The position numbers and the translations under genes were made by a program. Below, one piece after another: positions 8,809 through 33,413 of a DNA stretch of 33,413 nucleotides. The stretch comes from Elusimicrobiota bacterium (GTDB lineage: Bacteria; CAYTYR01; UBA6262). The DNA lies in NCBI GenBank assembly GCA_003153935.1, contig PMCA01000011.1, forward strand, positions 34,499 to 67,911, written 5' to 3'. The notes beneath the pieces are model-generated. The model saw nothing but the letters and a program-made list of their open reading frames with translations, was not told the origin of the DNA and did not search any database. How positions within the stretch are numbered: position 1 is the first letter of the stretch; every line of letters begins with the position of its first letter.

Positions 8809-9996
8809 TCAATAATTGAACACTAGCGCGAAAACTGTTACCAGGTTGCTGTAATCCTTGGCCTTGTCGTAACCGACGCCGACCATAACCCGCCACCAGT
8901 TGATCTGGAACCCGCCGGTATAATGCCAACGGCTATCCAGGTCTTTCACCCGTGACGGTTCATAATAAGTGCCCGCCCGCAAGTCTACTTTGGCATTTTG
9001 GCCCACGGGGAAAAGGTAATTACCGCCTACATGCAGGTCATAAACGCCCTTATCCTTAAATGTATAATTGGCTATGCCGCTGACCAGGTTAGAGCCAACC
9101 AACACTGTGTTATCCTGTTTGCCGATATAATTGGTATCGGCGGCTACCCCACAATTAGGCGAACACTGGTAATTAACTCCTATACCGGCGCGCAGAGGCA
9201 AGGTAACATTGCGGTACCATTGGATACCGGTATCCTGACCGGTTAATTGGCCCAAAAACTTTTTTTCTTCAAAAGTAAAAGTTATTTCTGGTTTATAAAC
9301 CGCGCCCAGGGACAGTTTTTCGGTCGCCCGGAACAAGATCCCCGCATCGATCGAGGTACCGCGGACCTCCTGCTCATCATCTATATCCACCCGCTCAATA
9401 ACCGTTGTGGTCCCGGGGAAATAGACCGGGAATCTCATCCTGATCATTTCGTCGATGGTAAAGATATTAACATTAACCCCTACAGCCAGGTCCTGGCTCA
9501 ATTGCACTGATACGGGAATGCTGAAGGAATTAACACCTAACTTCAGGTCATATATCTCCAGGGTGGTGGAAGGCAAAACCCTGCCGTCAAAATTCTGTTC
9601 GGCTTGGTAGGGAGTATTATAGACTACGCCCGTCGCGATATTTACGCTGGGGCTGGGCCGATGAGTCCGGCCGACTATCCCGCCAAACCAATAAGTCAAA
9701 GGAAACTTATCTTTAGTGCCGTTATTGTCAAAATCAGTCTGGTAATTGTCTATCCGGCTGGAGGCAAACCCCAGGTCCATGACTGCTGGCGAAAAAACCA
9801 GGCACGCCGGGTTATAATTGACCGCGTTCAAGTCGTTGGATTTAGCCAGGTAGGCGCCGGCCAGTCCGACGATTCTCTGATCGCCGATGACATAACCGCC
9901 GTAGCCGTTATAGCTTTCCAAGGCCCATAAATTATTACTGCCAACCAAGCCTATGAAAAAAAGCAAAAACAGCAAAATAATTGCTTTTTTCCCCAC
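8809..9996 (-). CDS. Outer-membrane beta-barrel protein, FadL/UPF0164-like
   Basis: A 395-residue exported protein. It begins with a signal peptide (lysines then a leucine/phenylalanine-rich core, cleavage probably near residue 25). The mature N terminus has GDQRIVGLAGAYLAKSNDLNAVNYNPA, typical of the FadL/TodX-like and UPF0164/PorV families. The rest alternates short amphipathic strands with Gly/Asn-rich turns and ends in FNY, an aromatic C-terminal residue as expected for a substrate of the BAM assembly machinery. The start is GTG with AGGAGG upstream. A perfect consensus promoter lies 39 bases before it. It may transport hydrophobic molecules or act in the surface secretion apparatus; which one is not clear. 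It implies a diderm envelope. Confidence 0.85.
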   Translation of the reverse strand: MGKKAIILLFLLFFIGLVGSNNLWALESYNGYGGYVIGDQRIVGLAGAYLAKSNDLNAVNYNPACLVFSPAVMDLGFASSRIDNYQTDFDNNGTKDKFPLTYWFGGIVGRTHRPSPSVNIATGVVYNTPYQAEQNFDGRVLPSTTLEIYDLKLGVNSFSIPVSVQLSQDLAVGVNVNIFTIDEMIRMRFPVYFPGTTTVIERVDIDDEQEVRGTSIDAGILFRATEKLSLGAVYKPEITFTFEEKKFLGQLTGQDTGIQWYRNVTLPLRAGIGVNYQCSPNCGVAADTNYIGKQDNTVLVGSNLVSGIANYTFKDKGVYDLHVGGNYLFPVGQNAKVDLRAGTYYEPSRVKDLDSRWHYTGGFQINWWRVMVGVGYDKAKDYSNLVTVFALVFNY

Positions 9997-13409: not shown

Positions 13410-15914
13410 TTATCCTTGCCATTGCGCTATCTTGGTTTTATATTTGCTGAAAATTTCCTTGGCTTTATTGCCGGAGGCGGATTCCACATAGATATTAAAG
13501 AAGGGCTTATCCGGATCGGGTATCAACAGGGCCCAGAATTCATTATCATATATCTTCACGCCGTCCAATAGTTCGAATTTTGCCCCTTCATCCTTGGCCA
13601 GCTGGATCAAATTACGCATCACCGTGCCTTTGGCCGACCAAGTGCAGGGCACTCGTTCCTTGTGAATATGGATGGGCGGCAACTCCTGGCTCAAAGCGTG
13701 CAGCCGGATGTTCTGCTTGGCGAGAAGCTCCATGATCTTGGCGATAACGAACATGCCGTCAAAGGCGCCCAGGAAATTCGGGAAGATAAAGCCGCCGAGA
13801 TTGTCGCCTAACAGGTCCTGCTCTTTACGCAGGGCCTGCTCCATTATGGAACGAGCCGTGGTTTTGGTCCGCAGGATCTGGCCATGATATTTTTTCGCCA
13901 CTTCTTCGATCACCGCGGTCGCGGTGACCGGAACCGCGATAGATGCGTCTTTTTTATTTCTCATGACCAGGGCGGCGATCAGGGCCAGTGCTATTTCATC
14001 GCTGACCATCTTGCCTTTTTCATCCACTAAAAATACTTTTTCCGCTCCGGTGTCCAGCATAAAGCCGATGTCCGCTTTTAAAGCTATGGTGGCGTCGGCC
14101 AGTTTTTTCCAGGAAGCGTCAAACTCTTCCGCGGATTTAGTGATCTTGGAGGCGTCAATATTGGCGTTCAAGGCGATCACTTCACAGCCCAGGTCTCCGA
14201 GAATGGAGGGGAAAAGCGTGGCCGCGTCGCTGAACGCGTAATCGATGACGATGCGCAGACGCGCCTGGCTGATAGCCTTATGATCTATGGCGTTCAGAAA
14301 ACCTTCTTTATAGTCTTCGATAACCCGGCCGGGGAAACTCAGGTCGCCCGTGTCTTCCACTTTGGCGCGGCGGAAATCCTCGCGGAAGAACAACTGCTCG
14401 ATGGACTTTTCCTTATTGAAGGACAGGTCCACTCCGCCAATATCGAAAAATTTTATGTCAATGACCTGGGAATCATAAGGCGATTTACGCACGTGAATTC
14501 CGCCCCGTTCCCCTTCCTTGCCAATATTATAGCGCAGCAGCGGGATGGGGATAGCGCGCAGGTCTTTTACGTTGACGCCGCTGGACAGCAGGCCGCAAAT
14601 AAAAGCGCGGTTGATCATGCGGCTGGCTTTATGCGAATCGCGGCTGGTCATGACCGTGGATCCCTTGCCCAGATAAGCGCCGTAAGCGGCCCCCACTTTA
14701 GCGACGAACTCCGGGGTCATTTCAATGTTGGCCAACCCGGAAATGCCATAAGCCCCGAAGAGGGTCTTGGACCACTTCTCACCCCAGACCAGGCTGGAGG
14801 ATAGTGTGGATCCGTCTTCGACCACTTTGTGCGGCCATAATTTTACATTATCCTTGATGCGGGCCTCTTCACCGATAACGCATTCATCGGCGATAACCAC
14901 CCCGTTCTGGATAAAGGCTTTGGCCCGGATATCCACCCCTTTGCAAATAATATTTTCCCTTAGCTCCGCCTTGCGGCCGATATGGGAATTTTCCCAAATT
15001 ACCGAATTATATATTTTGGCGCTTTCTTCCACCTGGGTGTTGTCGCCGATGACCGAATTGACGATCTCCGCCCCGGCTTTGACGATACAGTTCTTGCCTA
15101 TGACCACGCCGCCTTTGAGATTGGCTTGTTTGTCGATCTCACTGTCCTCACCAACCCATATATCGCGCCCGATAGTATTAAGTTTATTGCCGGGGATCTC
15201 TACCTTTACTTTGCCGGTAAGAATATCCTGATGGGCAATGCGGTATTCGTTCAAGTCGCCGATATCTTTCCAGTAACCGTCCGCTATATAGCCAAATAAG
15301 TTCTGCTTGCCTTCCAGCAACTGCGGAAAGAGATTGCGGCTGAAATCAAATTCTTTCTTTTCCGGAATAAATTCAAATATCTGCGGTTCCAATATATAAA
15401 TTCCGGTATTAACCGTATCGCTGAAGACTTCACCCCAAACCGGTTTCTCCAGGAATCTTTCGATCCGCCCGTCTTTATCGGTAATGACCACGCCGTACGC
15501 CAAGGGATTGTTGACCCGGGTCAGCACCATCGTCGCCAGGGCTTTTTTTGCCTTATGGTATTTAAGCGCCTCCGTCAGGTTGAAATCGGTCAGCACATCG
15601 CCGCTGATGACGATAAACGTTTCTTTAATGCTTTTTTCCGCGTTCTTGACGCTGCCGGCGGTGCCGAAGTCCTCTACCGCGTCCACATAATCCATCTTGA
15701 TGCCGAAAGAATTGCCGTCGCCGAAATAATTTTTGATCATCTCCGGCTGGAAATAAAGGATGGAAGACATTTCCTTAAAACCATGCTGTTTAAGCAACTC
15801 GACGATATGGACCATCATGGGCTTATTAACTACGGGGACCATGGGTTTTGGATAATTTATGGTAAGCGGGCGCAATCTTGTTCCCAAGCCACCGGCCATG
15901 ATGAGTGCTTTCAC
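13410..15914 (-). CDS. Nucleotidyltransferase (GMP-pyrophosphorylase type) fused to a degenerate phosphohexomutase domain
   Basis: A three-part protein of 834 residues. Residues 1-235 are a sugar-1-phosphate nucleotidyltransferase with MAGGLGTRLRPLT, the PKPMVPV motif and SGDVLTDF. Residues 245-365 are left-handed beta-helix hexapeptide repeats (for example GVVIGKNCIVKAGAEI). Residues 370-834 follow the alpha-phosphohexomutase fold, but the loops are altered: RKSPYD replaces TASHNP, LDTGAEK replaces DGDGDR, and IPDPDKP replaces RPSGTEP. The family is annotated as mannose-1-phosphate guanylyltransferase/phosphomannomutase in cyanobacteria and Firmicutes. An ATG at 15932 is in frame, but GTG at 15914 has GGAGG five bases upstream and gives the standard MKALIMAGG start. 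The product is probably GDP-mannose, or another NDP-sugar, for surface glycans. Confidence 0.9.
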   Translation of the reverse strand: MKALIMAGGLGTRLRPLTINYPKPMVPVVNKPMMVHIVELLKQHGFKEMSSILYFQPEMIKNYFGDGNSFGIKMDYVDAVEDFGTAGSVKNAEKSIKETFIVISGDVLTDFNLTEALKYHKAKKALATMVLTRVNNPLAYGVVITDKDGRIERFLEKPVWGEVFSDTVNTGIYILEPQIFEFIPEKKEFDFSRNLFPQLLEGKQNLFGYIADGYWKDIGDLNEYRIAHQDILTGKVKVEIPGNKLNTIGRDIWVGEDSEIDKQANLKGGVVIGKNCIVKAGAEIVNSVIGDNTQVEESAKIYNSVIWENSHIGRKAELRENIICKGVDIRAKAFIQNGVVIADECVIGEEARIKDNVKLWPHKVVEDGSTLSSSLVWGEKWSKTLFGAYGISGLANIEMTPEFVAKVGAAYGAYLGKGSTVMTSRDSHKASRMINRAFICGLLSSGVNVKDLRAIPIPLLRYNIGKEGERGGIHVRKSPYDSQVIDIKFFDIGGVDLSFNKEKSIEQLFFREDFRRAKVEDTGDLSFPGRVIEDYKEGFLNAIDHKAISQARLRIVIDYAFSDAATLFPSILGDLGCEVIALNANIDASKITKSAEEFDASWKKLADATIALKADIGFMLDTGAEKVFLVDEKGKMVSDEIALALIAALVMRNKKDASIAVPVTATAVIEEVAKKYHGQILRTKTTARSIMEQALRKEQDLLGDNLGGFIFPNFLGAFDGMFVIAKIMELLAKQNIRLHALSQELPPIHIHKERVPCTWSAKGTVMRNLIQLAKDEGAKFELLDGVKIYDNEFWALLIPDPDKPFFNIYVESASGNKAKEIFSKYKTKIAQWQG

Positions 15915-15957
15915 CGTATCCTCCATCTCCATAAAATCGGGTTATATAGACTATGAT

Positions 15958-16355: not shown

Positions 16356-18119
16356 TTATTTAATAACAGCTATTTTACCTTTTCTGGTTACCTGGCTGTT
16401 CTCCATCAGGTAAAGATAGATGCCGGCGGCGACTCTTTCTCCGCTATCATTAGTGCCGTCCCAATAAGCTTCGCTCTGACCGCGCAAGGTCTTGACCAGT
16501 TCTCCGGCCAGGGTAAATATCCTGATCTCGGCTTCCTCTTCTCCTATTTTGGAAAATTTCAACTTAGCGCGGGAAGAAATGGTCCAGGGATTTGGGTAGC
16601 AGTACATTTTCTGGCCGTAGTCAGGCGGCACATAAGCCAGTCCCAGGTAGCTAGCCTCCTGCTCGGTAGGGTTTTTAGCGCTGTCAACGACGAAGTAGTG
16701 GAAAACCAGGCTGTTATCAGTTTCTCCCCTGGGAAGGGTAAATGATCCTGTCCAGTCGTTACCGGACGGGGTTAAAGCAATGGCCTGAGCCGCCCCACTT
16801 CCTATAGAGTAATCCAAAAGAGGCGTTGCCACAATAGTATTGCTCGAGGAGATTCGCAGAGTAACGTTCACCACCCCGGCGATGAAAGGAGGCGCTGGAT
16901 CAAAATCCAATTGGACCTGAGGCGGGTTAAAATCGGGATTATCCTTACCGGGACTGGGGCCATTAAATAAGTGCCAATCATTTTTGCCGTTAGTGTCAAC
17001 GCTCAGGGGGCTTACCCGCCCGATCGATCGCTCAGCGGTCACCTGGCTGGAATTGGTCCAGCAATCGCTTTTTGTTACGGTATCACCCGCCACTAGCCAT
17101 TGGCCATTGTCCGCCAGAAGCTTAACGTCATTATTTTCCCCGCCGGTAAAATCACCAACCCCGTCGCTCCAGCACACAGCATCGATAAATCGCCCGCCGG
17201 CCGGAGCGCTCATCAGCGCCAATTCGTCAGTGGTAGCCGATAAACCGGTATCGGGAACATATAGGTCAATTACTCCGTTATGATTCAAGTCTCCGGTAGC
17301 ATCTGTTTCATCGACGCCAGCCTCATCCCAGTAAACCACCGCGTATTTACCCGGAGCCAGCGTAACCGGGCTGGTGGCTAATTTTGAGTCAGTGCCATCC
17401 AGGTCAGTCAGCATAAAATTACTTATATCGACCGGGGTTTCTCCATAATTATATAGTTCCGCCCAATCCGTGGATGCGGCAAAAGCGACTTCGGTAATTC
17501 TGACCTTATATTCCGGCGCGGCAGGATCAGTACCATTATCCATAACTATTTCACCATCATAGTAAACGCTGTTCTGGGCTTTAGGCGTGGCAAAAAGCAG
17601 CGCGCTTTTAGCATCCAGGCCTATGAACTTCTCTCCGTTATTATTGCTCCAGTTGGTGGATAACCAGCCGCTTCCCAGCGGGTTAATTCTCTCCATGGAA
17701 TAATAAGGGGCTTTGGCGCCCGCGAACCAGCCGGCGGCGCAGGGAACGGAATCTACTGCCACAGTATAGCTGTCATATAAGACCAGGTCCTCGCCGATGT
17801 CGCTAAGCGCGCCTGTATAGAGCTTATCGGCGGCGATATCCGAGACCGTGTTATCGTCGGTGCGTTCTAACAGATAATAACTGTTGGCTTTTATGATGCC
17901 GGTTAATGGGATACTGGGAACACCGTCAGCGCTTTTTAACACCCAACTGCTAACATCGACATCATAGTTGGTATTATTATACAGTTCGATCCATTCGTCA
18001 CTGCTGGAGGCGGCCGTCCCCATCCACATCAACTCGTTAATGACCACATCTCCCGGTGCCGCGGCGAATAACTTCACGCTCAACAAACTCAAGGCTAAAA
18101 CTAATATTAACTTCTTCAT
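16356..18119 (-). CDS. Secreted lamin-tail domain protein with FlgD-like C-terminal domain
   Basis: A 587-residue exported protein. Residues 1-20 form a signal peptide (KKLILVLALSLLSVKLFAA). Two lamin-tail-domain-like modules follow: about 23-150 (VINELMWMGTAASSSDEWIELYN) and about 205-330 (VRITEVAFAASTDWAELYN, with an EF-hand-like DLNHNGVID near 283). A beta-rich linker covers about 400-500. The last 85 residues form a FlgD-like Ig module (CYPNPWTISSRAKLKF, IFTLAGELVKTL, WDGTNDSGERVAAGIYLY). That ending is common in secreted proteins of uncultured phyla and resembles C-terminal sorting modules. No catalytic motif is visible, so it is probably a surface or extracellular binding protein. The ATG has AAGGGGAGAG upstream. 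The gene appears to stand alone. Confidence 0.85.
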   Translation of the reverse strand: MKKLILVLALSLLSVKLFAAAPGDVVINELMWMGTAASSSDEWIELYNNTNYDVDVSSWVLKSADGVPSIPLTGIIKANSYYLLERTDDNTVSDIAADKLYTGALSDIGEDLVLYDSYTVAVDSVPCAAGWFAGAKAPYYSMERINPLGSGWLSTNWSNNNGEKFIGLDAKSALLFATPKAQNSVYYDGEIVMDNGTDPAAPEYKVRITEVAFAASTDWAELYNYGETPVDISNFMLTDLDGTDSKLATSPVTLAPGKYAVVYWDEAGVDETDATGDLNHNGVIDLYVPDTGLSATTDELALMSAPAGGRFIDAVCWSDGVGDFTGGENNDVKLLADNGQWLVAGDTVTKSDCWTNSSQVTAERSIGRVSPLSVDTNGKNDWHLFNGPSPGKDNPDFNPPQVQLDFDPAPPFIAGVVNVTLRISSSNTIVATPLLDYSIGSGAAQAIALTPSGNDWTGSFTLPRGETDNSLVFHYFVVDSAKNPTEQEASYLGLAYVPPDYGQKMYCYPNPWTISSRAKLKFSKIGEEEAEIRIFTLAGELVKTLRGQSEAYWDGTNDSGERVAAGIYLYLMENSQVTRKGKIAVIK

Positions 18120-28064: not shown

Positions 28065-28454
28065 CTATTTCGCGTTCTTGGCTTGCAATAGCTCTCTTAC
28101 CTTCGCAACTAGATCATCTAACTCAAAGGGCTTCCCCATGTAGACATTCGCGCCTGCCTGCCGCCCCTTTTCCTCATCATCCTCGTTCACCCGGGCGGTC
28201 AGCATGATAATAGGAATATTGCTGTATTTTTCATCGCTTTTCAGGAGCTTGCATACTTCGTAACCGTTCATTTTGGGCAGCATTAGGTCCAGCACCATCA
28301 GGTCAGGGAGTTCGCTTTTGGCCTTGTTAAGCGCTTTTTCACCATCATCAGCCGTGATGACTTCAAAACCACTATCCTTTAAAATAGTCTCTATAATTTC
28401 CAGTATGAAGGGTGAATCATCCACTACCAGGATCTTTGCGTTTTTTTCCATCAT
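28065..28454 (-). CDS. cheY: CheY-like single-domain response regulator
   Basis: A 129-residue stand-alone receiver domain. The acidic pocket is Asp12-Asp13, the phosphoacceptor is Asp56 (LMVLDLMLP), the switch threonine is Thr86 (IMLTARV) and the conserved lysine is Lys108 (GKPFEL). All are present, so it should accept phosphate from CheA. There is no output domain. As the last gene of the cheA operon with CheC and CheD it is the likely motor- or pilus-directed CheY. The ATG is followed by MEKNAKILVVDDS. It resembles the receivers of twitching-motility systems as much as flagellar CheY, and the target is not given by the sequence. Confidence 0.9.
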   Translation of the reverse strand: MMEKNAKILVVDDSPFILEIIETILKDSGFEVITADDGEKALNKAKSELPDLMVLDLMLPKMNGYEVCKLLKSDEKYSNIPIIMLTARVNEDDEEKGRQAGANVYMGKPFELDDLVAKVRELLQAKNAK

Positions 28455-28483: not shown

Positions 28484-28969
28484 TTATAACCGGTTAACCC
28501 CGTACTTTATCGACTTGACCGTTACTTCGCCATTATCCAGATTGAACTCTACGCTCTTGCCGCAGTCCCCGCCGGTATCTTCGGCGACGATACGGATATT
28601 CTCTTTGCTCAGGATGTCTTTAGTGGCCTGCACGTTCCGCTGGCCGATATTGCCGAGCGGTTCCGCCAGCACATTGGCGAACATTTGCGCGCCGCCTACT
28701 ATTTTCGCCCAGGTGGTGGTTTTTAATGCCCCGAGTTGTTTCATCATGCCCAGCATTTCCGGCACCGCGGTGTCGGCGAATTTGGCCGGATTGGAGCGGA
28801 TCTTGGAAAAAGCGGTGCTGGGCAGCATGATGTGGGCCAAGCCGCCCACCTTATGCACTGAATCATACAAAATAATTGCAACACAGGAACCCAACGCATT
28901 TGTAATTATTTTATTTGGCGCAGTACTGACTTTTAAGTCGGCTATTCCTACCTTAATCTGTTCGTCCAT
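28484..28969 (-). CDS. cheD: Chemoreceptor glutamine deamidase CheD
   Basis: CheD deamidates glutamines on chemoreceptors and is held and controlled by CheC. The 161-residue protein has the catalytic cysteine in ALGSCVAI (about Cys31), the catalytic histidine in GGLAHIMLP (about His48) and a threonine/serine position in KIVGGAQMF. The C-terminal GNIGQRN and VAEDTGGDCGKSVEF blocks are typical. The ATG has GGGAGA upstream. It follows a CheC gene by about 20 bases, which fits the known CheC-CheD partnership. Confidence 0.95.
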   Translation of the reverse strand: MDEQIKVGIADLKVSTAPNKIITNALGSCVAIILYDSVHKVGGLAHIMLPSTAFSKIRSNPAKFADTAVPEMLGMMKQLGALKTTTWAKIVGGAQMFANVLAEPLGNIGQRNVQATKDILSKENIRIVAEDTGGDCGKSVEFNLDNGEVTVKSIKYGVNRL

Positions 28970-28989: not shown

Positions 28990-29604
28990 TCAGCCCACGC
29001 CCAGGGAAGTGAGGATAACTTCCAGAGATTGCGGGTCCGGTAGTAATAAGAAACTGCCATCGATCTTGTATTCGGCTTCGCTGAACTCCAGCTGTATGAT
29101 CATGGCGTATTCGGCGTTCTGGCTCAGGTTAATGATGATAAAATCGACTAAAGCTCCCAGCATATCCATGGCGTAATAGGGAATGGACGGGATGATCTCC
29201 TTGTTGGTCAGAGCCGAAAGCGCCGTCAGGCAGGACCCGGCCAGGATCGTCCCGGTCTCCTTGATAGCAGACTGGTCCATTTCATTCAAAACCTTGGTGG
29301 TGCCGGCCGGCCGGTTCATCAGGATATCCGCCAGGGTCAGCGCTGTTTCCTGGCTGAAAAAGAACAGGATATTGCCGCTGATCTGGCCCTGCATCTGCAG
29401 GTAAACGCCGACAACCATTTTCTCGGCGCCGCCGAATTCCTGGGGCACTTCGTCCAATGGGACGACTTTCGCTTCCGGCACGCTGATCCAGACCTTCTTT
29501 CTCAACAACTCCGACAGCGCGGTATCGGCGTGCGAAGCACCGATGTTCCCGATCTCTTTTAACGCATCCAGTTGGAAAGGTGTTAAATTTTTAAGATCAA
29601 TCAT
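28990..29604 (-). CDS. cheC: CheC-family phosphatase (one intact active site)
   Basis: CheC removes phosphate from CheY-P and binds CheD. The 204-residue protein has two homologous active-site helices. The first, LDALKEIGNIGA, keeps the ExxN pair (Glu17, Asn20). The second, IKETGTILAG, keeps Glu116 but has Thr119 in the Asn position. Hydrophobic C-terminal strands complete the fold. A TTG at 29616 is in frame, but ATG at 29604 has GGAG six bases upstream and matches the family start. It overlaps the stop of the upstream CheC paralog by 8 bases, suggesting coupled translation and perhaps a heterodimer. Confidence 0.88.
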   Translation of the reverse strand: MIDLKNLTPFQLDALKEIGNIGASHADTALSELLRKKVWISVPEAKVVPLDEVPQEFGGAEKMVVGVYLQMQGQISGNILFFFSQETALTLADILMNRPAGTTKVLNEMDQSAIKETGTILAGSCLTALSALTNKEIIPSIPYYAMDMLGALVDFIIINLSQNAEYAMIIQLEFSEAEYKIDGSFLLLPDPQSLEVILTSLGVG

Positions 29605-30223
29605 TTTCCACTCCAATCGCTTTTAATATTAACTTTAACGAACCGGGATTAGGCATAAGGAAAAAATGTCCGCTGACTTTTGTCTGTTTCTCGACGAACT
29701 TCACTTCAATAACGATGGCGTATTCCACTTCCTGGCTCAGGTCGATCAGGATAAAATCGATGATCGCGCCGACCATGTCCAGGGTCAAGCTGGGAACGCG
29801 CGGTATTATGGTAACTTTGACCATCTTGGACAGCGCGGTCAAAAAAGCCCCGGTGACGATCATGCCGGTTTCCTTCAGCAGGGACCGGCTCATCCCAGTC
29901 AATATCCTGGTGGTGCCGATCTTTTTGCCCATCAGGATATCGGTGAGAGCGAAAGAACTGTCGCGCGGGAAAGTTAATAGTACGCTGCCGAACACGTCGC
30001 CCAGCAACCGGGTGTATATGCCCGCTACCAGGTTCTCCGGACCGCCCATGAAGGAAGTGACGTCTTTTATCGGCACTACCCGTATGTGCGGAACGGTCAT
30101 CATGACTTTCCGGTTCAACATTTGCGACAGGGCGGTGGCGGCATTGCCCGCACCGATAGAACTGACTTCCTTCAGCGCGTCCAGTTGCCGTTCCGATAAT
30201 TTCAACACATCGATTTCGGCCAT
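29597..30223 (-). CDS. CheC-family protein with altered active sites
   Basis: A 208-residue paralog of the next gene. The fold signature is clear (LDALKEVSSIGAGNAATALSQML and LLKETGMIVTGAFLTALSKM), but the asparagine of the ExxN phosphatase pair is replaced at both sites: Ser22 after Glu19 and Met121 after Glu118. It therefore probably has weak or no CheY-P phosphatase activity, and may act as a scaffold, CheD ligand or CheY-P sensor. The ATG has AGGGAGA upstream. It starts 9 bases after the FtsA-like gene and overlaps the second CheC gene. Confidence 0.86.
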   Translation of the reverse strand: MAEIDVLKLSERQLDALKEVSSIGAGNAATALSQMLNRKVMMTVPHIRVVPIKDVTSFMGGPENLVAGIYTRLLGDVFGSVLLTFPRDSSFALTDILMGKKIGTTRILTGMSRSLLKETGMIVTGAFLTALSKMVKVTIIPRVPSLTLDMVGAIIDFILIDLSQEVEYAIVIEVKFVEKQTKVSGHFFLMPNPGSLKLILKAIGVEND

Positions 30224-30232
30224 TTATTCTCC

Positions 30233-32371
30233 CTATTCAAAAAACAATTGTACTTCGGCGCCCTGGCTTAATCCGGTGGTAAAACTGGCAGCTCTGCCGT
30301 TGATCAACATTTTTAATTTCTTGCCGGGATTTTGTTCCACGTTCAACGGGACATAGCGCAACAGGTCCACCATGATAAGCTCGGCGTCTTTCCCCGGCGC
30401 GGTCCGTATATCGGCGCCGCTGATAAGAAATTCATCCGCTGACACTTCCTGCCCATTCATGAAATATTTGCCACGTTGGCCTTCGATATTATATTCTTGA
30501 CCGTTGATCCGGAGCTGAACCCCGTGTCCCGCCGGGGGCGCCGGCACCACTTCTTTTATCTTATAATGCCGTGAGGCGTTGGTATCATAGCTGATTATAT
30601 CCGTATCCTTGAGATGGGCATCCAGGCTCGCTTCCTGCCCGTTCACATATAGATGGAAACTTTGCTGGGTAATTATCCGGGGCTCCCCGTCTATGGTAAC
30701 CACGATATTGCGCTCTTCGGCCTGGTCCAGTCGGCACCGCTGCTTTAATAATTCGCGCAGGGTCATCTCCGGTTTAATGGTGATCTTGGCCAGGTCCACG
30801 ATCTCTGTTTCCAGGTCTGCCAACTGGTCATTCATGTATATCGCTGGGCCTAGCGGCACGGCTTGATCGTTCAAAATTACCTTCTTGCTGGTCCGTAAAC
30901 CGATAAAATCCATGATCCTGGCCCGGCCGTCTTCTCCGTCCCTGGCTTCGCTGCAGGAGATTACATCTTTATCCGTAATGTGGTCGTCCAGGCCCGCCAC
31001 ATTGCCATTCAAAAGAATGTTGGCTGGCTGCCCGAGCGTGCCCGGGATGATCCTGATCTCGCCGTCCAACTCAAAGGTCTTGGCCAATCCGGGCCGAGAG
31101 TGCATTTTCTTGGTGCCGATGCCGCTAGCCACCAGGGCGGAAAGAACATTTAATTTCTGGTTAATATTCAGCAGGTGTATCCTCTTGCCGTTCACCATCA
31201 CATTAACGAACTGCAGCCCCTGCTGCTCCGCGGCCACGGTAACGATACCTAAAGGAGTTATGGCTTCGGGCCCGGTCAACTGGCCGGTATCGTTACTGAT
31301 GCCCCTGATCAACTCCGGTCCCCTAATACCTACTCTTTCCCTGGCCAAGCCGATCTGCTGCGCTATTTTTTCCTGCAGCAACGGCGTTAAGCTGCCGCCG
31401 CCGACGCATACTACCGCGCTGGGCCGGGTTTTATTAAGGACCATTATCTCGTCCACTATTTTGGCCGCCAGGTCGGTGATCGCCGGACTGAGGTCCGTCA
31501 ACACCTGCAGCGTGGAGAGGTTCCAATTCTTGCCAAAGATATCGCTGAACTCCGCCTGGGCCTGGGTAGTCAGTAATTTTTTCACTCTTTCGCCCACATA
31601 AAAGTCCAGCAGGTACAATTCCGCTAATTTTTCCGTGATCTCGTCGCCGGCATGAGGCACCATGCCATACGCGACCACGCTGCCGCCGCTGGTAATGGCG
31701 ATATCACTGGTTCCCGCGCCGATATCCACCAGAGCCAAGTTAAGACGACGCATATCCTGCGGGATAATAGCGTTGATCGCCGCTATCGGCTCCAAAGTTA
31801 GCGCCGAAACTTCCAGGCCAACCTTTTTTAATACTGTAAACATGCTTTCCAGCACTACGCGCGGCAAAAAGGTGGCAATTATATCTACCTTAATCTCCCG
31901 GGCCTTCTGGCTGACCAGGTTATCCATTTTTTCATTATCCAGATAATAATTGACCACACTGTAGCCCACGCAATAATAGTCCGTGGACAGGTCCTGGCCC
32001 TGGGCATTGTTCAGGCCGCCTAACACTTGCTGTACCGCCGCCAGCTCCAAGTCCAGTACTTCCGCCGCGGTTATTTCATTTTCAAACGCCAGGGTCTTAA
32101 TAGCCGTGCCGCGCAGGGTTTTAAGCGCCCGGCCGGCTACGGCCACGGCGGCTTTCTCTAATTTTTCACCGAGACGACTCTCCAGGGCCTGCTTGATCTC
32201 CCCGATCACTTCCGCCACTTTTTCCACGTCATGGATCTGGCCGGCCAGCATGGCCCGGGTCTGGTGTTCACGGACTTCGCAATCCGTTATGCGCAGCACG
32301 CCGTTCTCCGGTTGCGCGATCAGTCCGGCTACTTTTCTGGTACCTATATCCAAAGCAAAAATTTTGCTCAT
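30233..32371 (-). CDS. FtsA/PilM-like actin-fold ATPase with C-terminal beta-rich repeats
   Basis: A 712-residue protein. The first 380 or so residues are an FtsA-type actin-fold ATPase: phosphate-1 DIGTRKV (about 8-14), an SHS2-like insertion including VAVAGRALKTLRG, phosphate-2 DIGAGTSD (about 216-223), the adenosine motif VGGGS (about 323-327) and ITPLGIVTVA. From about 390 to the end, at least five segments repeat a pattern of hydrophobic residues, then NG, then about seven residues, then L and D-x-I (for example LYVNGQEASLDAHLKDTDIIS and LRINGQEYNIEG). I read these as small beta-grasp-like modules. The usual C-terminal membrane helix of FtsA is not seen. A GTG at 32377 is in frame, but ATG at 32371 has better spacing to AGGG. 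It lies between cheA and cheC. Confidence 0.82.
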   Translation of the reverse strand: MSKIFALDIGTRKVAGLIAQPENGVLRITDCEVREHQTRAMLAGQIHDVEKVAEVIGEIKQALESRLGEKLEKAAVAVAGRALKTLRGTAIKTLAFENEITAAEVLDLELAAVQQVLGGLNNAQGQDLSTDYYCVGYSVVNYYLDNEKMDNLVSQKAREIKVDIIATFLPRVVLESMFTVLKKVGLEVSALTLEPIAAINAIIPQDMRRLNLALVDIGAGTSDIAITSGGSVVAYGMVPHAGDEITEKLAELYLLDFYVGERVKKLLTTQAQAEFSDIFGKNWNLSTLQVLTDLSPAITDLAAKIVDEIMVLNKTRPSAVVCVGGGSLTPLLQEKIAQQIGLARERVGIRGPELIRGISNDTGQLTGPEAITPLGIVTVAAEQQGLQFVNVMVNGKRIHLLNINQKLNVLSALVASGIGTKKMHSRPGLAKTFELDGEIRIIPGTLGQPANILLNGNVAGLDDHITDKDVISCSEARDGEDGRARIMDFIGLRTSKKVILNDQAVPLGPAIYMNDQLADLETEIVDLAKITIKPEMTLRELLKQRCRLDQAEERNIVVTIDGEPRIITQQSFHLYVNGQEASLDAHLKDTDIISYDTNASRHYKIKEVVPAPPAGHGVQLRINGQEYNIEGQRGKYFMNGQEVSADEFLISGADIRTAPGKDAELIMVDLLRYVPLNVEQNPGKKLKMLINGRAASFTTGLSQGAEVQLFFE

Positions 32372-32378
32372 ATTCACC

Positions 32379-33413
32379 CTACATTATTCCCGCAATATCG
32401 ACTATTAATACCACCCGGCCGTCGCCAAGGATGGTCGCGCCGCTGATGCCCTTGGTCCGTTTCAGGATACCGCCCAGGGTCTTGATCACTATTTCTTCGC
32501 GGCTGTACAAAGAATCAACTATTATCCCTATTCGTTTATCGCCGACTTCTACTTCCACTATATAAGTTTCCTCGGTTGTGTTCAGGTCCAATCTAGGCAG
32601 CCCAAATACTTCCCTTAAGCTCACCAGCGGCAAGATCTCCTCGCGCACCCTGATGACTTCCCTTTTTTCAATGGTCTTGATCTGCGAGGGACTGATGGAA
32701 ATTATCTCGGTAATATTGGAAAGAGGTATAGCGTAAACCTCTTCGATCACCTTCACCAGCAAAGCCTGGATGATCGCCAGGGTCAAGGGCAGCTTGATGA
32801 CGAAACTGGAGCCCTTTCCCTTTTTGGTCTCAATCGTCAAAGAACCGTTAAAGGCCTCTACCTTAGTCTTAACCACATCCATGCCTACGCCGCGCCCACT
32901 GATATCGGTAATTTCCGCCGCGGTGGAGAAGCTGGGCTCGCAGATCAGCATGAGCATTTCATTTTCGGTCATGGCCGCCATTTTTTCTTTGGTGAGCATG
33001 CCCTTTTCAATGGCTTTTTCCGCTATTTCATGAGGGTCCATACCCTTGCCGTCATCGGTCAGCTCAATGCGCACATACCCTTTTTCGCGACGGGCTGACA
33101 AGCGGACATTGCCTTTTTCGCTTTTCCCATTCTTAATGCGCTCGGCCGGGACTTCAATCCCGTGATCAACGGCATTACGGATCAGGTGGATCAGCGGTTC
33201 GTTGATCTCATCCACTATCATCCGGTCCAACTCGATGTCCGAACCCTCGATCTCAAAATTTATCTCTTTATTTTTAAGTTTCGCCAGGTCCCTGACCACG
33301 CGAGGATAGCGGTCAAAGATGTGGGAAACTGGGATCATCCTGGTTTTAAGTACTTCTTCCTGCAAACTGCCGGTGATGCGTTCCAACTGTGTAAGGCTTT
33401 CGTTCAATTCATT
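32379..33413 (-). CDS. cheA: Chemotaxis histidine kinase CheA, 5'-truncated by window edge
   Basis: CheA autophosphorylates and passes phosphate to CheY and CheB. The visible 345 residues start inside the helical dimerisation domain (ESLTQLERITGSLQEEVLKTRMIPV). The ATP-binding domain has N box HLIRNAVDHGIE, G1 DDGKGMD, G2 GRGVGMDVV and GKGSSFVIKLPLTLAI, followed by a CheW-like receptor-coupling domain to the end (AIPLSNITEIISI, GRVVLIVDIAGIM). The phosphotransfer His domain and the true start lie outside the window. Reading is open to the edge. The stop is 7 bases before the FtsA-like gene. Confidence 0.96.
   Translation of the reverse strand, partial: NELNESLTQLERITGSLQEEVLKTRMIPVSHIFDRYPRVVRDLAKLKNKEINFEIEGSDIELDRMIVDEINEPLIHLIRNAVDHGIEVPAERIKNGKSEKGNVRLSARREKGYVRIELTDDGKGMDPHEIAEKAIEKGMLTKEKMAAMTENEMLMLICEPSFSTAAEITDISGRGVGMDVVKTKVEAFNGSLTIETKKGKGSSFVIKLPLTLAIIQALLVKVIEEVYAIPLSNITEIISISPSQIKTIEKREVIRVREEILPLVSLREVFGLPRLDLNTTEETYIVEVEVGDKRIGIIVDSLYSREEIVIKTLGGILKRTKGISGATILGDGRVVLIVDIAGIM

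Follow-up and report, generated by a model that had tools for sequence, protein, structure and literature searches.

The question raised by this locus is what an FtsA-like ATPase with a repeat-bearing tail does inside a chemotaxis operon. The window, meaning the whole stretch of 33,413 nucleotides that was analysed, carries the gene on its minus strand, and the protein is called FtsA′ here. The reading frame is open across 30233-32377 (minus strand) and the gene is intact. As judged from the sequence, ATG 32371 would be a better start than GTG 32377 because AGGGTGA precedes it. Residues are counted from GTG 32377, so each number is that of the first-pass annotation plus 2. The genes of the locus are:

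32379..33413, minus strand: 3′ part of cheA, continuing past the window; Hpt, dimerisation, ATPase and CheW domains, no P2 found
32374..32380, minus strand: probable ribosome-binding site AGGGTGA of FtsA′, from the sequence; overlaps the cheA end
30233..32371, minus strand: FtsA′, FtsA-like ATPase with beta-grasp tail, 712 aa (714 aa from the alternative GTG start at 32377)
29597..30223, minus strand: first copy of cheC (PF04509, E 6e-17)
28990..29616, minus strand: second copy of cheC (PF04509, E 8e-18); the listed ORF overlaps the first cheC by 20 nt
28484..28969, minus strand: cheD (PF03975, E 2e-32)
28065..28454, minus strand: cheY-like response regulator (PF00072, E 5e-31)

The first-pass annotation had placed FtsA′ between cheA and cheC in a tightly packed operon. 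Indeed, the gene order is cheW-cheR-cheY-cheB-cheA, FtsA′, cheC-cheC-cheD-cheY, with gaps of 7 nt from the end of cheA to FtsA′ and 9 nt from FtsA′ to cheC, and spacings of -20 to 29 nt between neighbouring genes. Past the window edge lie the rest of cheA, cheB, cheY, cheR, cheW, a secretin gene, one gene without assignment, pilO and a pilM-pilN fusion. The core order was kept in relatives of this genome from the same family and class. A search of the same genome for type IV pilus genes, which had been recommended as a check, found PilT in addition to the pilM-N, pilO and secretin genes adjoining cheW; one MCP was present and no FlhA was detectable. The CheA of this genome (32379-33413 and L116:9878-11506) had no detectable P2 domain, and the CheA beside FtsA′ in Omnitrophota/Goldbacteria has one. 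Elsewhere, the window encodes an 840-aa protein in which a nucleotidyl transferase with hexapeptide repeats is fused to a phosphoglucomutase/phosphomannomutase (13410-15932), a protein of 587 aa carrying lamin tail domains (PF00932) for which no further family was found (16356-18119), and a 395-aa ORF with zero Pfam matches at E 1e-8 (8809-9996).

The protein itself was divided into an ATPase head and a tail as follows:

31220..32371, minus strand: FtsA-fold ATPase domain, residues 3-386 (Foldseek, Pfam, motif counts in 63 homologues)
31862..32122, minus strand: IC subdomain, about residues 86-172 (secondary structure of the AlphaFold2 model and full-length Foldseek match to FtsA)
31127..31216, minus strand: linker hairpin and helix, an incomplete unit, residues 388-417 (model, hhalign)
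30932..31108, minus strand: beta-grasp unit 1, residues 424-482 (hhalign 97-99% to other units; unit HMM E 5e-11)
30764..30931, minus strand: beta-grasp unit 2, residues 483-538 (hhalign; unit HMM E 1e-10)
30569..30763, minus strand: beta-grasp unit 3, residues 539-603 (hhalign; unit HMM E 5e-15; weak direct ThiS match at 530-595)
30386..30568, minus strand: beta-grasp unit 4, residues about 604-665 (hhalign; unit HMM E 1e-11)
30236..30385, minus strand: beta-grasp half unit 5, residues 665-714, without the hairpin, at the protein end (hhalign 96-98%; HMM E 0.03)

The AlphaFold2 model of FtsA′, built from 63 aligned sequences, had a mean pLDDT of 89.9 and a pTM of 0.66. Residues 1-386 matched FtsA crystal structures with Foldseek TM scores of 0.79-0.85 by target length (0.85 for 7q6d, E. 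coli FtsA) and PilM structures more weakly (0.67-0.78 by target length), consistent with the FtsA/PilM-type actin fold first proposed for the N-terminal half. The model and its match to 7q6d also place an IC subdomain where IB would otherwise be. In double filaments of FtsA the lateral contacts come from the IC domain, and in both FtsA and PilM the IA-IC cleft holds a bitopic partner by its cytoplasmic tail (PMC7613929). The nucleotide motifs DIGT, DIGAGTSDIAI and GGGS were fully or almost fully conserved among 63 homologues, D218, G220, A221, G222, T223, S224, D225 and G326-G328 being identical in 63/63. Pfam and NCBIfam matches to FtsA/PilM covered the N-terminal half only, in line with the earlier claim that the C-terminal half is not part of FtsA. 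None of the seven FtsA′ proteins scored reached the NCBIfam cut-offs for FtsA or PilM: on TIGR01174 the window's protein gave 94.2 bits (E 9e-27) and six homologues 85-120 bits, under the cut-off of 175.85 bits, and on TIGR01175 (PilM) it gave 48.3 bits, under the cut-off of 133 bits.

The tail consists of four full and one half beta-grasp (ubiquitin/ThiS-like) units in tandem, the unit being built of a helix, a hairpin, a strand bearing an Asn-Gly turn, and a final strand with a Gly-Asp-x-Ile pattern. Modelled by itself, the tail reached a pLDDT of 93.7. The full units matched one another with hhalign probabilities of about 97-99% and the half unit with 96-98%; control segments from the ATPase half gave only 0.1-18.4%. 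Searched with a unit HMM, the window's FtsA′ gave five units; of 70 family members, 54 had five and 13 had four, and the seven canonical FtsAs searched had none. A chance repeat pattern was dropped because of these controls (hhalign no higher than 18.4%) and the absence of HMM matches in the canonical FtsAs. Among 63 homologues, the ThiS model matched 33, the Mut7-C ubiquitin model (Ub-Mut7C) 23 and the TGS model 22. The top-ranked Foldseek match of the tail was a bacterial multi-ubiquitin protein, 9cd2 (E 1e-4, probability 0.99), with a low TM score because the whole array fails to superpose, and single-domain structures compared with the tail gave TM scores of 0.60 (ThiS) and 0.70 (TGS) by target length. 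Since Foldseek shows beta-grasp units, a single known non-repeat domain was dropped as a description of the tail. The profile and structure checks named in the first-pass annotation thus returned the tandem beta-grasp array that it had suspected, with likeness to ThiS, TGS and ubiquitin and with no sign of the non-repeat fold that would have contradicted it. The repeats it had listed are real (hhalign 96-99%), save that the first, at about 388-417, comprises just one hairpin with a helix and falls short of a full unit. The protein ends in ...EVQLFFE and lacks a terminal Gly-Gly, so there is no sign of sulphur transfer or conjugation, and a sulphur-carrier function of the tail was dropped.

The amphipathic membrane anchor of FtsA was indeed absent, as noted at first reading: FtsA′ ends in a beta strand, its last 18 residues have a helical hydrophobic moment of 0.13 and a charge of -2, and no stretch of the protein reached transmembrane hydrophobicity. 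Where E. coli FtsA has R300, a position presumably part of the FtsZ site, 7/7 canonical FtsAs have arginine and FtsA′ proteins mostly Ala/Thr. With the amphipathic helix and the R300 equivalent lost, a Z-ring role is not to be expected of FtsA′. A tree of the ATPase half split FtsA′ from canonical FtsA with 100% support and grouped the window's lineage with Omnitrophota (support 91). The window's genome yielded no canonical FtsA: its five PF14450 matches were MreB, PilM, two PilM-PilN fusions and FtsA′, and no missed ftsA was found on its contig C12. An assembly gap may account for this, the genome being 95% complete and the close relative G002 having ftsQ-ftsA-ftsZ. G002 has this canonical cluster in addition to FtsA′, and its FtsA has both the arginine and the C-terminal helix; G001 and G004 also have a second, FtsA-sized match. 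A general replacement of FtsA by FtsA′ was dropped because G002 has both.

Genome contigs scanned with two peptide patterns yielded at least 582 relatives. Among the 80 kept, most were from Bacillota, with others from Omnitrophota, Goldbacteria and Thermotogae, and the nearest named relatives of the window's protein among those 80 were from Omnitrophota. The family is widespread and apparently unstudied: literature searches combining FtsA with chemotaxis, CheC, PilM, beta-grasp, ccpA/aroA or flagella gave nothing about it, and searches for R300E and for FapA/HubP likewise gave no result. The exact gene set, not known from any characterised system according to the first-pass annotation, has similar counterparts in Omnitrophota and Goldbacteria.

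FtsA′ lies inside che operons in three lineages: the window's, Omnitrophota (L036, L039, L042, L131, L132) and Goldbacteria (L041 and L044, the latter a MAG labelled Methylomirabilis whose FtsA′ is very close to that of L041). In all three, cheC is adjacent to FtsA′ or one gene away, and in the window's lineage and in Omnitrophota the operon also includes cheD. In three che operons of Omnitrophota, the gene for an 87-aa ComFB-family protein (PF10719) separates FtsA′ from cheR (L036:7973-8236, L131:10053-10316, L132:6869-7132); the HMM match to PF10719 was obtained in L036 and L132. ComFB proteins are linked to cyclic dinucleotides.

Other settings were found outside these lineages. In G050, FtsA′ lies within a flagellar operon (flgG, flgI, HDOD, FtsA′, flgN, flgM, flgK, flagellin-like, fliW). 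In G040 a divergent FtsA′ adjoins cheR, cheB and several consecutive flagellar export genes. It is located directly 3′ of, and on the same strand as, the gene for FapA (flagellar assembly protein A, PF03961; L125:10792-12372). The members in G040 and G022 are very divergent, with long branches and one recognisable unit each, and their family membership is less certain. In three Clostridia cheR is adjacent to or near FtsA′. In Bacilli FtsA′ faces aroA and ccpA, with murC in the neighbourhood and, in many, motPS (named from sequence, with no HMM) just beyond; in Thermotogae it follows mutS2. In most Bacillota FtsA′ is not beside che genes. Embedding in a chemotaxis operon, true of this locus, is thus only one of several arrangements across the family. 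The recommended survey of homologue neighbourhoods found che or flagellar genes nearby in several phyla and usually no adjacent che gene in Bacillota. Given these mixed settings, neighbourhood by itself supports a chemotaxis link in only part of the family.

Co-occurrence is a stronger test of that link. FtsA′ was carried by 118/200 Bacillota genomes sampled, 113 of them with FlhA and 5 without; 57 genomes had FlhA only and 25 had neither (odds ratio 9.9, p 4e-7, where this and all later p values assume an independence that the genomes do not have, and some FlhA absences may reflect incomplete assemblies). The control trait SpoIVA showed no association with FtsA′ among FlhA-positive Bacillota (p 0.76), and a sporulation gene was dropped as an interpretation for that reason. 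Among FlhA-negative Bacillota, CheW domains were present in 5/5 FtsA′ carriers versus 0/18 non-carriers (p 3e-5), a comparison covering the 5 FlhA-negative carriers and 18 of the 25 double-negative genomes. In Omnitrophota, FtsA′ was carried by 3/116 genomes, all three among the 20/116 with CheW (p 0.0045), and in these three carriers it lies within one gene of cheA. The phylum surveys started from G067 and G069 comprise the same genomes and are no independent replicate. FlhA was present in nine Bacillota carriers, G050, G054, G022, G040, one Thermotogae MAG and G063, and was not found in the window's genome, its four relatives or four Omnitrophota/Goldbacteria carriers; PilT was present in 12/12 carriers tested from the che-operon lineages. 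Wherever tested, FtsA′ is restricted to genomes with chemotaxis genes, and its link to chemotaxis is well supported. Its absence from 57/170 flagellated Bacillota and 17/20 CheW-bearing Omnitrophota indicates that chemotaxis in general can do without it.

These data suggest that FtsA′ probably organises or tunes chemotaxis machinery. The reading we favour, with a probability of about 0.5, is that FtsA′ is soluble and unanchored and serves chemosensory systems as an adaptor or scaffold gated by ATP, its tail forming an arm of several ubiquitin-like modules for docking. Computation shows its fold and repeats, the conservation of its nucleotide site, the missing anchor and arginine, the operon linkage and the co-occurrence with chemotaxis genes; ATP hydrolysis, filament formation, binding partners and an effect on behaviour are what we infer. 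The actin-like head would bind ATP. By analogy with FtsA and PilM, the IC subdomain may hold a membrane protein by its short cytoplasmic tail, assemble filaments, or both. The beta-grasp arm would dock other proteins, most likely the chemosensory proteins CheC, CheD, CheA or CheR. FtsA′ would place or tune the chemosensory array, alongside type IV pili in lineages without flagella and alongside flagella elsewhere.

A more specific and unlikely version is that FtsA′ forms ATP-dependent actin-like filaments, a cytoskeletal scaffold of chemosensory arrays with the poly-ubiquitin-like arms as docking rods. If true, a chemotaxis cytoskeleton would exist in much of Bacillota and in several candidate phyla, overlooked so far because the gene resembles FtsA and PilM.

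We likewise consider it unlikely that FtsA′ is an assembly ATPase of a motility organelle, a PilM analogue serving mostly the flagellum and otherwise the type IV pilus, its chemotaxis link arising from the shared setting. The flagellar contexts in G050 and G040, the association with FlhA, the pilM-N, pilO and secretin genes next to the operon and the PilT found in every che-operon carrier tested would all suit such a role. However, five Bacillota carriers have CheW and no FlhA was found in them, one third of flagellated Bacillota lack FtsA′, the pili of the window's genome already have PilM proteins of their own, and the constant neighbours in three lineages are cheA and cheC rather than pilus or flagellar genes. 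Quite improbable is a purely regulatory role, in which the ATP-bound head and the arm would control the CheY-P phosphatase or receptor deamidase output of CheC/CheD with no structural part; the proximity of cheC in the three che-operon lineages and the in-operon cheD fit this, but neither gene was seen beside FtsA′ in G040 or the Bacillota carriers inspected. Least probable, and the worst fit of these alternatives to the co-occurrence data, is that FtsA′ is a second FtsA, acting in division or cell shape and merely lying in the che operons of some lineages: the FtsA fold (TM 0.85), the conserved ATP site, the housekeeping neighbourhood including murC in Bacilli and the failure to find a canonical FtsA in the window's genome speak for it, but G002 keeps ftsQ-ftsA-ftsZ and G001 and G004 a second FtsA-sized match, FtsA′ forms its own fully supported clade without the arginine and membrane helix, and absence from the CheW-free genomes tested is unexpected for a division protein.

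FtsA′ is a testable candidate for a component so far lacking in accounts of how chemosensory systems are organised, and also for the coupling of type IV pili to chemosensory operons in flagella-less lineages. Cultivated genera that have members of the family include Brevibacillus, Niallia and Pelosinus. Although it occurs in more than half of the sampled Bacillota, no curated NCBIfam model reaches its cut-off and no paper was found.

Compared with FtsA (7q6d, 7q6f, 1e4f), FtsA′ shares the actin fold with IC subdomain (TM 0.79-0.85) and the nucleotide motifs. It differs in lacking the C-terminal amphipathic helix and R300 equivalent, in its five-unit beta-grasp tail, in its separate clade and in lying outside the ftsQ-ftsA-ftsZ cluster. 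With PilM (2ych, 5eou) it has in common the actin fold, the IC subdomain and the partner-tail cleft, and in the window's genome pilM belongs to the neighbouring gene run; the fold match is weaker (TM 0.67-0.78) and PilM has no beta-grasp tail. Whereas PilM has a fixed setting with pilN/pilO, FtsA′ lies in the che operon, with a separate pilM-N fusion, pilO and secretin next door. Each tail unit has the fold of ubiquitin-like proteins (ThiS 3cwi, TGS 3hvz, SAMP1 3po0, multi-ubiquitin 9cd2), and the tandem layout is closest to multi-ubiquitin and di-ubiquitin proteins; unlike these, FtsA′ has no Gly-Gly, is fused to an actin-fold ATPase and has units that diverge in sequence. Finally, the operon has the gene content of CheC/CheD-type chemotaxis operons (cheA, B, C, D, R, W, Y) and departs from them in the inserted FtsA′ and the adjoining pil genes, in a genome with one MCP and no detectable FlhA.
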